Source: Phenylobacterium sp. (GTDB lineage Bacteria > Pseudomonadota > Alphaproteobacteria > Caulobacterales > Caulobacteraceae). Taken from it: 64,000 bases of DNA. The stretch is taken from assembly GCA_004799545.1 (NCBI GenBank), contig SSMU01000009.1, positions 1 through 64,000 of the forward strand, in the 5' to 3' direction. Shown here one piece after another: positions 43,145 through 47,220 of this stretch. Positions within the stretch are counted from its first letter, which is position 1. Each line of letters opens with the position of its first letter. The position numbers were made by a program, and so were the translations under genes. The notes under the pieces are model-generated. The model was not told where the DNA came from, did no database searches, and was given only the letters and a program-made list of their open reading frames with translations.

Positions 43145-43222
43145 TTCAGCCTCGGTCTTATGCGATGATCGGGGCCGTTGGAAGGGCGCGCGCCATCGCG
43201 TCCCCTCAAGAAAGGGCGCGCC

Positions 43223-45148
43223 ATGAGTGAGCAGACGCAGGCTCCCGACAAGGCCCCCTCTCCGGGCAAGGCGGGCAAGCGCACCGAGCCGGCGCCCGAC
43301 GGCGAGGCGCCCCAGGCCACGGCGAAGGCCGCGCCTGAAACCGCCTCGGTCGCCCAGGAAGCCCTTAGCTTCACCGCCGAGCAGCGGGCGCAGATCGAGA
43401 AGATCTCCATGAACCTGGCCCGGGTGGCGATGAACGCCCAGGGCGCGCTGGCCGAAATGGCCCTGAAGAACGCCGAGCGCCCCGCCGCCCTGACCCCCGA
43501 CCCGTTCCACGTCACGCCCGCGCTCACCGAGGTGATGGGCCGCCTCGCCGCCCAGCCGGACAAGCTGATGCGCGCCCAGGCCGACCTGTTCGCCCGCTAC
43601 CTCGACCTCTGGCAGTCCGCCGCCCGCCGCATGGGCGGCGAGACCCCCGAGCCGGTGGCCGCCCCCGCCAAGGGCGACAAGCGCTTCGCCGACCCCGACT
43701 GGACCGACAACCCGGTCTTCGACGTGATCAAGCAGTCCTACCTGCTCACCTCCGGCTGGCTGAACGGCCTGGTGGAGGGCGTCGAGGGCGTCGATCCGAT
43801 GACCAAGCGGCGGGTCGAGTTCTTCATGAAGATGCTCACCGACGCCTTCTCGCCGACCAACTTCCTGGCCTCAAACCCGGCGGCGCTCAAGGAGCTGGCG
43901 GCCTCCGGCGGCGACAGCCTGGTGCGCGGCATGGACAACTTCATGGCCGACCTGGAGCGCGGCGGCGGCCAGCTCTCCATCGCCCAGACCGACTATCAGA
44001 TGTTCAAGATCGGCGAGAACGTCGCCACCGCCCCCGGCAAGGTGGTGTTCCGAAACGAAATCATCGAGCTGCTGCAATTCTCTCCGACGACGGACGAAGT
44101 CTACGAGATCCCGCTGGTGATCTTCCCGCCGTGGATCAACAAGTTCTACATCCTCGACCTGCGCCCCGAGAACTCGATGATCCGCTGGCTGGCCAGCCAG
44201 GGCGTCACCGTCTTCGTCGCCTCCTGGGTGAACCCCGACGCCAGCCTCGCGGAGAAGACCTTCGAGGACTACATGCGCGAGGGCATCTACGCCGGCGTCG
44301 CCGCGGCCATGGAGCAGTGCGACGTCCCGCATGTGAACACCGTTGGGTATTGCATCGGCGGCACCCTGCTCTCCTCCACCCTGGCCCACATGGCCTCGCG
44401 CAAGGTCGAGCCGATCGCCTCGGCCACCTTCTTCGCCGCCCAGCAGGACTTCTCCGAGGCCGGCGACCTCCTGCTGTTCACCAGCGAGGACTGGCTGAAC
44501 GACCTCGAGAAGAAGATGGACGAGGGCGGCGGCGTGCTCTCCGGCCAGACCATGGCCGACACCTTCAACGCGCTTCGGGCCAACGACCTGATCTGGTCGT
44601 TCTTCGTGAACAACTACCTCTTGGGCAAGGAGCCGAAGCCCTTCGACCTGCTGTTCTGGAACTCCGACCAGACCCGGATGCCCAAGACCCTGCACCTCTT
44701 CTACCTGCGCAAGTTCTACGGCGAGAACGCGCTCGCCAAGGGCGAGCTCACCCTCGACAACGTCCGGCTGGACCTCAAGGACGTGAAGACCCCGATCTAC
44801 GTGCAGTCCTCGAAGGAGGACCACATCGCCCCGGCCCGCTCGGTCTACAAGGGCGCCCAGCTGTTCGGCGGCCCGGTGACCTTCACCCTGGCCGGCTCCG
44901 GCCATATCGCCGGCGTGATCAACGCCCCTGTCGCCAACAAGTACCAGCACTGGACCAACGCGGACCTGCCGCCCACCCTCGCAGAGTGGCAAGCCAACGC
45001 GGTGGAGCATCCCGGCTCCTGGTGGCCGCACTGGGCGACCTGGCTGAAGGCCCGCTCCGGCCAGCTGGTCCCCGCCCGCGACCCCGCCAAGGGCAAGCTC
45101 AAGCCGCTCGGCGACGCGCCGGGGACCTACGTCAAGGTGAAGAGCTGA
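43223..45148 (+). CDS. phaC: class I poly(3-hydroxyalkanoate) synthase
   Basis: A 641-residue class I PHA synthase that polymerises 3-hydroxyacyl-CoA into storage granules. The lipase-like box GYCIGG carries the catalytic Cys377. Downstream are the aspartate in VQSSKEDHIAP and the histidine in LAGSGHIAGVIN. PWINKFYILDLRPENSMIRWLASQGVTVFVASWVNPD is the hallmark segment. The N-terminus has a ~60-residue Ala/Pro-rich extension. ATG 43223 begins MSEQTQAPDK; the 15-codon-longer track start is unlikely. No phaA or phaB is adjacent. It is convergent with the DUF296 gene three bases beyond. Confidence 0.96.
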   Translation: MSEQTQAPDKAPSPGKAGKRTEPAPDGEAPQATAKAAPETASVAQEALSFTAEQRAQIEKISMNLARVAMNAQGALAEMALKNAERPAALTPDPFHVTPALTEVMGRLAAQPDKLMRAQADLFARYLDLWQSAARRMGGETPEPVAAPAKGDKRFADPDWTDNPVFDVIKQSYLLTSGWLNGLVEGVEGVDPMTKRRVEFFMKMLTDAFSPTNFLASNPAALKELAASGGDSLVRGMDNFMADLERGGGQLSIAQTDYQMFKIGENVATAPGKVVFRNEIIELLQFSPTTDEVYEIPLVIFPPWINKFYILDLRPENSMIRWLASQGVTVFVASWVNPDASLAEKTFEDYMREGIYAGVAAAMEQCDVPHVNTVGYCIGGTLLSSTLAHMASRKVEPIASATFFAAQQDFSEAGDLLLFTSEDWLNDLEKKMDEGGGVLSGQTMADTFNALRANDLIWSFFVNNYLLGKEPKPFDLLFWNSDQTRMPKTLHLFYLRKFYGENALAKGELTLDNVRLDLKDVKTPIYVQSSKEDHIAPARSVYKGAQLFGGPVTFTLAGSGHIAGVINAPVANKYQHWTNADLPPTLAEWQANAVEHPGSWWPHWATWLKARSGQLVPARDPAKGKLKPLGDAPGTYVKVKS

Positions 45149-45151
45149 GGG

Positions 45152-45577
45152 CTAGCTTTCGTCGTCCGAGCGCCGCGGCTTCACGCTGAGCTCGCCATGA
45201 CCGGTGGCGGGATCCAGCGGCCGGCGGAACGCCAGCTCATCCAGCTCCCCGATCACCAGCTCGGCGGTGGTGTTGACGATGCAGCCGGAAACCAGGTGCC
45301 CGCCGATGCAGGCGCCGTCGCCGCGCGCCAGGCTGATGTGGACGTGCATCCCGTCCGGACCCAGGGTGCCGGCCAGCGACACGATCTCCATCGGCTCGAC
45401 GAAGGTCCGGAAGTCCTCCGCCTCGCCCGCGGCGCCAGCCATCCTCAGCCGCGCCCGCGAAAGGCTGCCCACGCCGGACAGGATGCAGCCGGCGCGCAAG
45501 CCCTGCGTTTCGGTCAGCCGCGCCAGCTCGGCCTTCAGATCGGTCCCCGGCGTCAGGCGGAAGGCGAGCGTACGCAT
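45152..45577 (-). CDS. DUF296/PPC domain protein
   Basis: A 141-residue protein with a plants-and-prokaryotes conserved (PPC/DUF296) domain: LRAGCILSGVGSLSRARLRMAG, EPMEIVSLAGTLGPDGMHVHISLARGDGACIGGHLVSGCIVNTTAELVI. The HVHIS and GGHL segments contain the histidines expected for a metal-binding trimer; in plants the domain is in AT-hook DNA-binding proteins, but bacterial proteins lack that hook and their role is unknown. ATG 45577. It is convergent with phaC. Confidence 0.9.
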   Translation of the reverse strand: MRTLAFRLTPGTDLKAELARLTETQGLRAGCILSGVGSLSRARLRMAGAAGEAEDFRTFVEPMEIVSLAGTLGPDGMHVHISLARGDGACIGGHLVSGCIVNTTAELVIGELDELAFRRPLDPATGHGELSVKPRRSDDES

Positions 45578-45630: not shown

Positions 45631-46089
45631 CTAGGCCGGCTCCGACACAGCCTCGTCCGGCGCCGCCCCGAAAACCTCGAGGCCGGGGGGACACGGCAGC
45701 GTCTCGTCTCCCGTCATGCGGCCGAGCAGGTAGGCCACCGCCTTCGCCACGTCCGCGGGCGTGTAGGGCTTCGGCAGGGATCCGATCGCGTCGGTCCGCG
45801 CCGACCTCGCCCGGCCGGTCTGGCCGCTGATGAACAGGCTGGGAACGCCGAGCCCTTTCAGGTCGCGGGCGAGGGCAATGCCGTCGTCACGTCCCTCGAG
45901 CTCGATGTTCACCAGGGCAAGGTCCGGCCTATGGTCTTTCGCCGCCTGGAGCGCCTCCTGGCGGCGGCCGGTGAGGTCGAGCACGTGATAGCCGGCGTCC
46001 TCGAGCTCGTCCCGCAAGCTTATCGCAGGCAGGACGTCGTCCTCGACGATCAAGAGGGTCTGGCCCAGGCCAGACGTCTTCGTGTCCAT
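45631..46089 (-). CDS. receiver-domain response regulator with Asn at the phospho-acceptor position
   Basis: A 152-residue single receiver-domain protein. The acidic pair lies in LLIVEDDVLPA (residues ~16-18), the switch Ser88 in LFISGQ and the conserved Lys107 in LPKPYTP. At the position of the phospho-accepting aspartate the sequence is ALVNIELEG, with Asn61 (codon AAC). It therefore may not be phosphorylated in the usual way. It has a short C-terminal tail but no output domain. It lies 39 bases downstream of the histidine kinase gene, so the two are probably cotranscribed. Closely similar receivers usually pair with HWE/HisKA_2 kinases. Confidence 0.88.
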   Translation of the reverse strand: MDTKTSGLGQTLLIVEDDVLPAISLRDELEDAGYHVLDLTGRRQEALQAAKDHRPDLALVNIELEGRDDGIALARDLKGLGVPSLFISGQTGRARSARTDAIGSLPKPYTPADVAKAVAYLLGRMTGDETLPCPPGLEVFGAAPDEAVSEPA

Positions 46090-46128
46090 TGCTGGACTCC
46101 ATTTTCAGTTTTCGTAGCCCGCAGATCG

Positions 46129-47220
46129 CTAGGCTGCGGGGCGCGCGACAGCCTGTGTCATGCCATCGCGCTCGGCGTCGTCTTTCACGAGCGCGATTTG
46201 CGTGTGGGCTATCACTACACGAGTACCCGGATGCGCCGGGCCGATGTCCACGCTGGCCTCCAACTGCTTGGCCAGGGCTTCGACGATGCTGGTGCCCAAC
46301 CCCGTGCGGATCAGCGCCGGGTCGCGGGGCATTCCGACGCCATCGTCGGTCACCGACAGTGACCAATTGGCGTTGCGGAAATCGCAGTCGACGATGATCT
46401 TGCCGACCCGCCCGTCCGGGAAGGCGTGTTTCAGCGCGTTGATGACGAGCTCCGTGACGATCAGGCCGAGGCTTGTGGACACCCTGGCGTCCACGATGCC
46501 GCCTGGCCCGGTCACGGTCAGCGCATGGGGTTCGCTGCGGCCGATCATCGAGGCGGCGATGCTGTCGCAGAGGTTTTTGAAGTAGGCCCCCAGTTCCACG
46601 TCACCGTCGCCGGAACTGGCAAGTTGCCGTTCGAGCGCCGCGACCGACATCACCCGATCATGCGCGTCGCGCAGATGACCGCGCGTTTCATCGGACTCCG
46701 TCTTCCGGGCGTTCTGCAGCAGGACGCTGGCGATGATCTGCAGGCTGTTGGCGACCCGGTGGCGGACTTCCTGCAGCAGCACGAGGTTCTGCCGCAGGGC
46801 CTCCTCCTTGATCTTCTCGTTGGCGCGCGCGTCCGTCACATCGGACACGGCCATGAGGACCCGCCGGTTGTCGAGGTCGAGATAGATCAGCTTCTGGGCA
46901 TGTATCACCAGTCGGCGTGTCCCGTGGCCGGGCCGCCTGAGGTCGATTTCGTAGGCCTCGATCTTGGCCGCGCCGGTGAGCGTGGCGTCCAGCAGCGAAC
47001 GGAGCTGGGGTTCGGCCCACTCGCCCACGCCGAGGCTGGACAAGGGCTGACCGGTCGCCGCGGCGCCATCGACCTCGAAAACCTCCGAGAACGACGTGGA
47101 CGCGGCGACGATGTTGAGCGCGCCGTCCAAAAGCAGCAGCGGCCCCGGCGACGAAACGACGACAGCCAATGTCAGGCTGAGTGCGGCTTCCTCGGTATAG
47201 CTTGATGTTCGGTCAGCCAC
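46129..47220 (-). CDS. PAS-containing sensor histidine kinase, HisKA_2 type
   Basis: A 363-residue soluble kinase. The first ~130 residues hold a PAS domain (SPGPLLLLDGALNIVAASTSFSEVFEV up to VSDVTDA). The HisKA_2 dimerisation domain follows with the phospho-histidine His154 in EVRHRVANSLQIIASVLL, then an HATPase domain with N-box LIVTELVINALKHAFP and G-boxes DDGVGMP and GLGTSIVEALAKQL. There is no membrane segment, so the signal is probably cytoplasmic. The track start is GTG 47220. It is upstream of the Asn-receiver gene. A ~195-base AT-rich region precedes it and should contain the promoter; no clear promoter pair was assigned. Confidence 0.92.
   Translation of the reverse strand: MADRTSSYTEEAALSLTLAVVVSSPGPLLLLDGALNIVAASTSFSEVFEVDGAAATGQPLSSLGVGEWAEPQLRSLLDATLTGAAKIEAYEIDLRRPGHGTRRLVIHAQKLIYLDLDNRRVLMAVSDVTDARANEKIKEEALRQNLVLLQEVRHRVANSLQIIASVLLQNARKTESDETRGHLRDAHDRVMSVAALERQLASSGDGDVELGAYFKNLCDSIAASMIGRSEPHALTVTGPGGIVDARVSTSLGLIVTELVINALKHAFPDGRVGKIIVDCDFRNANWSLSVTDDGVGMPRDPALIRTGLGTSIVEALAKQLEASVDIGPAHPGTRVVIAHTQIALVKDDAERDGMTQAVARPAA

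Follow-up and report, generated by a model that had tools for sequence, protein, structure and literature searches.

By comparing orthologues, we show that selection holds a single-domain receiver of a Phenylobacterium sp. in a form that lacks the phospho-accepting Asp, with the remaining active site kept. The gene lies in a stretch of 64,000 nucleotides that we analysed as a whole (the window). The receiver is real and conserved, and appears to be without a description in the open-access literature searched; it belongs to the Asp-less receivers, a known class, and receiver-like proteins that inhibit kinases are likewise a known idea. A built-in kinase regulator is likelier than a phosphate switch because the loss of Asp has been kept across eight genera, usually beside the same kinase. 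We give roughly even chances to the reading, drawn by analogy with other receiver-like proteins, that the receiver is a phosphorylation-independent and probably inhibitory regulator of this kinase, which would itself phosphorylate other receivers.

Receiver gene and active site

The PF00072 match of the receiver scores 44.5 bits against a gathering cut-off of 30.2, so the protein contains a response-regulator receiver domain (Table 1). At the end of β3, where a phospho-accepting response regulator has Asp, the protein has N61, which places it among the aspartate-less receivers or pseudo-receivers (PF00072 domains without the phospho-Asp) and not among the phospho-acceptors. The acceptor strand reads LALVNIELEG, and the nearest paralogue in the same genome has LALVDINL where the receiver has LALVNIEL. 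The first-pass annotation had claimed that Asn replaces the acceptor Asp, that the acidic pair, the switch Ser and the Lys are conserved, and that the gene lies directly downstream of a HisKA_2 kinase. All of this held when we re-examined it: the coordinates, strand and translation are correct, residue 61 is encoded by AAC, the conserved residues are E16/D17, S88 and K107, and the two genes are on the same strand with a gap of 39 nt.

Table 1. Positions in the window of the receiver gene, its active-site codons and the neighbouring kinase gene.
Feature	Position	Strand	Basis or remark
Single-domain Asp-less receiver, 152 aa	45631..46089	-	PF00072 residues 13-118, E 2e-11; ATG 46087-46089, stop 45631-45633
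Ribosome-binding site of the receiver gene, GGAG	46097..46100	-	sequence
Asn61 codon AAC, site of the expected phospho-acceptor Asp	45907..45909	-	translation; N in 49/49 orthologues
E16 D17, metal-binding acidic pair	46039..46044	-	invariant, 63/63 aligned receivers
Ser88, switch Ser/Thr position	45826..45828	-	S in 49/49 Asn-type; Asp-type mostly T
Lys107, conserved active-site Lys	45769..45771	-	invariant, 63/63 aligned receivers
PAS-HisKA_2 histidine kinase, 363 aa, directly upstream	46129..47220	-	PF08448, PF07568, PF02518
Kinase R153-H154, phospho-accepting His and preceding diagnostic Arg	46759..46764	-	linked-kinase alignment

An AlphaFold2 model built with the family alignment has a confident receiver fold (pLDDT 87, pTM 0.82). 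The model matches many PDB receivers with the (βα)5 fold; the pseudo-receiver FrzS and DivK rank among the best, and these matches are not discriminating. Beyond the receiver domain there is a C-terminal PxxLEVF tail (window 45670-45690) that is kept in both Asn-type and Asp-type members; this segment is predicted with confidence in the model, with a short extra strand at 138-139.

In surveys, Asp-less receivers account for ~4% and pseudo-receivers for 6-13% (PMC4395418, PMC12632262), and an Asp-less receiver as such is therefore not rare. Asn is the second commonest replacement among Asp-less receivers (16%), and the second acidic residue is retained by just 29% of the published ones (PMC4395418). 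When we scanned the genome that contains the window (4.03 Mb, 30 contigs) with PF00072, we found ~71 receiver domains, and after alignment about 7 distinct receivers are without Asp, 4 of them with Asn. The present receiver is the sole one of these that keeps the acidic pair, the Ser/Thr and the Lys. A fixed single-substitution clade coupled to a kinase is less ordinary than an Asp-less receiver as such. The other Asp-less receivers of this genome (L149, L163, L245, L256, L259 and L260) have Ser, Asn, Glu or Gly at the acceptor position and have lost further active-site residues too; one of them, with VDLVIVNTAA, may be the second receiver in a PleD-like protein.

Orthologues and selection on residue 61

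Searches that covered 101 genomes from the genus, ~390 from the family, 398 from the order and 385 from the class yielded 49 distinct orthologues in 8 genus groups; 7 of these groups belong to the Caulobacteraceae and 1 to another family of the same order. Within the Caulobacteraceae sample, 44 of 390 genomes have an orthologue of the Asn receiver. The same receiver is present in a contig labelled as a Brevundimonas vancanneytii MAG and in a genome of group g4 (L054, L106); this group also contains genomes well above the usual Brevundimonas size, and the label may be wrong.

All 49 distinct orthologues have Asn at position 61, encoded by AAC in 35 and by AAT in 14. On the protein tree this codon has changed at least 12 times, with no change to Asp, and these synonymous changes suggest that Asp at position 61 is itself selected against. 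Asp is present in 14 of 14 Asp-type outgroup receivers. In a tree that includes them, the Asn receivers make up one side of a branch with an SH-aLRT value of 97 (outgroup branches are long), and because they form one clade, a single D-to-N change suffices. For close pairs, dN/dS is roughly 0.1-0.4, and the median is 0.33; dN/dS is thus well below 1 (Nei-Gojobori, partly saturated). E16, D17, G33, A46, L64, K107 and P108 are invariant across the Asn and Asp groups, and S88, G89, Q90 and S104 are invariant only within the Asn group.

The first-pass annotation had raised the prospect of orthologues with Asp together with a sequencing error in this genome, and what we found was the opposite. A sequencing error or a degenerating gene would fit with AAC being one transition from the Asp codon GAC, and with an Asn relative (L113:1612-1926, G1074) that has a stop codon directly after the conserved Lys-Pro and is possibly a decaying or truncated copy. 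This explanation is refuted by the presence of Asn in every orthologue from many independent assemblies, by purifying selection and by the invariant pocket, and its probability is close to nil. Phosphorylation of D68, D69 or a Ser in place of the missing Asp is highly unlikely: D69 is D in 48 of 49 orthologues, but it lies in the β3-α3 loop, 8 residues past the acceptor, where an acidic residue is ordinary, and the equivalent residue is also D in 3 of the 14 Asp-type outgroup receivers. S88 and S104 are the sole invariant Ser residues nearby.

The complete rest of the active site, kept under selection, would also be expected of a slow-maturing receiver in which deamidation of Asn61 to Asp, delayed or on signal, yields a normal phospho-receiver. 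In addition, the ALR review reports one case of an Asn-bearing receiver domain that reverted to Asp, which we counted in favour of deamidation (PMC4395418). Against it, not one of the codon changes at residue 61 led to Asp, and when we compared neighbouring genes between genomes, we found no deamidase gene travelling with the receiver and its kinase. Ile after Asn is a slow context for spontaneous deamidation, and the residue that follows Asn61, Ile62, is invariant. We consider maturation by deamidation very doubtful.

Kinase-receiver cassette and solitary receivers

The kinase encoded upstream of the receiver has PAS_4, HisKA_2 and HATPase_c domains with the H, N, G1 and G2 boxes, and is thus a HisKA_2 histidine kinase. 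We found that 28 of the 49 receivers lie directly behind one kinase clade, always in the order kinase then receiver and on the same strand, with a gap that is typically 20-107 nt (alignment ends). Across the 101 genomes of the genus, 17 of 17 kinases of this clade adjoin an Asn receiver, and these 17 are exactly the kinases with over ~64% identity to the window kinase. The linked kinases form one clade (SH-aLRT 99) apart from 33 unlinked relatives. Nearly all linked kinases are predicted to be active, because 27 of 28 retain the phospho-His (H154) and the N, G1 and G2 boxes are intact. In the cassette kinase L109 (G1024:C24), residues 153-154 have Arg in place of the phospho-His (EVRRRVANS), so that this pair has neither the His nor the Asp of a two-component system.

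Eight kinase positions separate linked from unlinked kinases, and four of these (R153, N170, T174 and E197) lie in the HisKA_2/DHp segment, with which receivers make contact. Linked kinases have Arg for Gln just before the phospho-His (R153 is present in 28/28 linked vs 1/33 unlinked kinases) and, in every sequence, Glu for Gln at 197. The residues in the DHp segment may be mere clade markers, as four of eight positions in a fifth of the protein is weakly above chance. The correlation between kinase and receiver distances is modest (r = 0.48) and confounded by species history.

The genes around the two-gene unit mostly differ among genomes, and thus the conserved unit is the kinase-receiver pair; we rejected a conserved operon of more than two genes for the same reason. 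The two genes constitute a kinase/pseudo-receiver cassette of the Caulobacteraceae that appears to be undescribed in the open-access literature searched. In the window, the gene after the receiver (45152-45577) encodes a PCC-domain protein, and beyond it is a convergent gene for PhaC polyhydroxyalkanoate synthase (43178-45148); neither has a counterpart next to the cassette in other genomes.

Caulobacter is known to have receivers that act as allosteric activators of kinases, and an Asn receiver that mimics one state of a true receiver might stimulate the kinase or its phosphatase activity. The observation that the kinase never occurs without the receiver in the 101 genomes of the genus would fit such a positive co-factor. 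However, FixT and Osp, the closest single-domain precedents for which kinetics have been measured, inhibit their kinases, and we regard stimulation as distinctly improbable.

The remaining 21 of the 49 receivers, among them every one of the 11 in one of the two main branches, are not adjacent to a cassette kinase, which means that the receiver has another target now or had one in the past. In four genomes (G026, G029, G989 and G1058) a paired and a solitary copy are present together. We considered whether the kinase had moved elsewhere in genomes with a solitary receiver and rejected this, as solely other, unlinked kinase clades were found there. The first-pass annotation had proposed a phosphorylation-independent partner of the adjacent kinase. 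A partner that acts independently of phosphorylation is well supported, as all orthologues have Asn, and the kinase pairing is real and evolutionarily stable; however, with ~40% of receivers solitary, partnership with the kinase is not the sole role.

The solitary receivers, with an entire branch among them, indicate that a kinase-independent role exists, and some pseudo-receivers bind partners that are not kinases, for example FrzS (PMC12632262). The receiver could thus be an adaptor with a non-kinase target and one fixed conformation, and the kinase gene would be coupled to it for co-expression, or the kinase would regulate it indirectly. Against such an adaptor, no kinase of the clade lacked the receiver in the 101 genomes of the genus, the clade-specific residues of the kinase include one beside the phospho-His, and a plain scaffold needs no pocket that is complete except for Asp. 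We consider an adaptor of this kind unlikely, though it has to be reckoned with.

Precedents and possible action on the kinase

FixT of Sinorhizobium meliloti and Caulobacter crescentus, like the window receiver, is a single-domain receiver-like protein in a system with a PAS kinase (PMC7078487, PMC9430884). FixT blocks autophosphorylation of FixL (PMC7078487, PMC9430884), and phosphorylation of S. meliloti FixT is not detectable (PMC7078487, PMC9430884). In contrast to the window receiver, which has a single Cys in 152 aa, Caulobacter FixT holds an Fe-S cluster via four Cys (PMC7078487); its target FixL is a different kinase. Osp of Rhodobacter sphaeroides, also a single-domain receiver-like protein, binds the kinase transmitter of CckA and blocks CckA independently of phosphorylation, and an engineered D51N version is functional (PMC9430884). 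The window receiver is a mirror image of Osp: Osp keeps the Asp and has lost the acidic pair and the Lys, whereas the window receiver keeps E16, D17 and K107 and is without the Asp. Unlike the window receiver gene, osp is not beside the gene of its kinase. RitR (Asn53), FrzS and ChxR share a receiver fold without the phospho-acceptor Asp, but their pockets are altered and they carry effectors or further domains, whereas the window receiver is a single domain with an otherwise intact pocket and is tied to a kinase.

The PRK13435-type or FAT GUY receivers MrrA, SdrG and Sma0114 belong to the same broad subfamily (NCBIfam; PDB sequence matches 2lpm and 5ieb) and go with the same kinase class (HWE/HisKA_2). 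These receivers have Asp, and MrrA and SdrG have the motif PFXFATG(G/Y), which defines FAT GUY receivers (PMC5964349); in contrast, the window receiver has Asn and PSLFISGQ, and (F/L/Y)ISGQ is found in all orthologues. The best score of the window receiver with the PRK13435 response-regulator models (NCBIfam NF009971 and sisters) is 89.8 bits against a cut-off of 151, and Asp-type outgroup receivers tested likewise score under the cut-off.

By analogy with FixT acting on FixL and Osp acting on CckA, we infer that the receiver docks directly on the kinase and inhibits it; the same analogy leads us to favour inhibition over activation. The receiver would dock on the DHp helices of the kinase as a normal receiver does, with its metal site and Lys in place, and would be unable to accept the phosphoryl group. 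While docked, it would restrain autophosphorylation or phosphotransfer, and the level or release of the receiver would set the output of the kinase. Stand-alone receivers probably act likewise on related kinases. It is also conceivable, though rather improbable, that the receiver is a dead-end substrate mimic in which the metal site, Ser and Lys bind the phospho-His in transfer geometry and the Asn, or regulated deamidation, stalls the complex. If this is true, the receiver would serve a histidine kinase as a trap or timer that is under selection and genetically linked to it.

If the receiver is an inhibitory regulator as proposed, the kinase would pass its phosphoryl groups to other receivers, for which MrrA- or PhyR-like proteins encoded at other loci are plausible candidates, and the decoy role raised in the first-pass annotation is plausible in this sense. 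The genome that contains the window encodes PhyR- and MrrA-like receivers with Asp; the MrrA-like receiver (L003) has the motif PFAFATGY, and the PhyR-like gene adjoins a HisKA_2 kinase. In Caulobacter, MrrA receives phosphoryl groups from HWE/HisKA_2 kinases and in turn feeds PhyK and PhyR (PMC5964349). Upstream of linked kinases, we found the EcfG/SigT motif GGAAC-N15-18-GTT in 1 of 29 cases against 0.55 expected by shuffling, and control of the kinase by this stress sigma factor is unsupported, the count being near the shuffled expectation. Upstream of solitary receivers the motif is present in 2 of 17 cases against 0.27 expected, which is too few to use. We thus found no stress-sigma promoter at the cassette, and its involvement in the general stress response is possible but has no support. 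Two genomes carry a kinase-receiver hybrid (L179:5498-6910, L184:5499-6911) immediately upstream of the cassette. This hybrid is similar to one of the HWE type (L197:3025-4440) that ends in a FATGYG receiver and lies near the PhyR-like gene of the genome that contains the window.

A 2025 review calls the on/off switching of bacterial pseudo-receivers a mystery (PMC12632262). In the Asn clade, the key position is changed and the pocket is kept, there is a linked candidate kinase, and paired and solitary versions exist in nature. The clade therefore lends itself to a clean test of direct action on the kinase by a single-domain receiver without Asp. Kinase inhibition, if true, would extend receiver-type inhibition to the HisKA_2 kinases of the alphaproteobacterial stress network.
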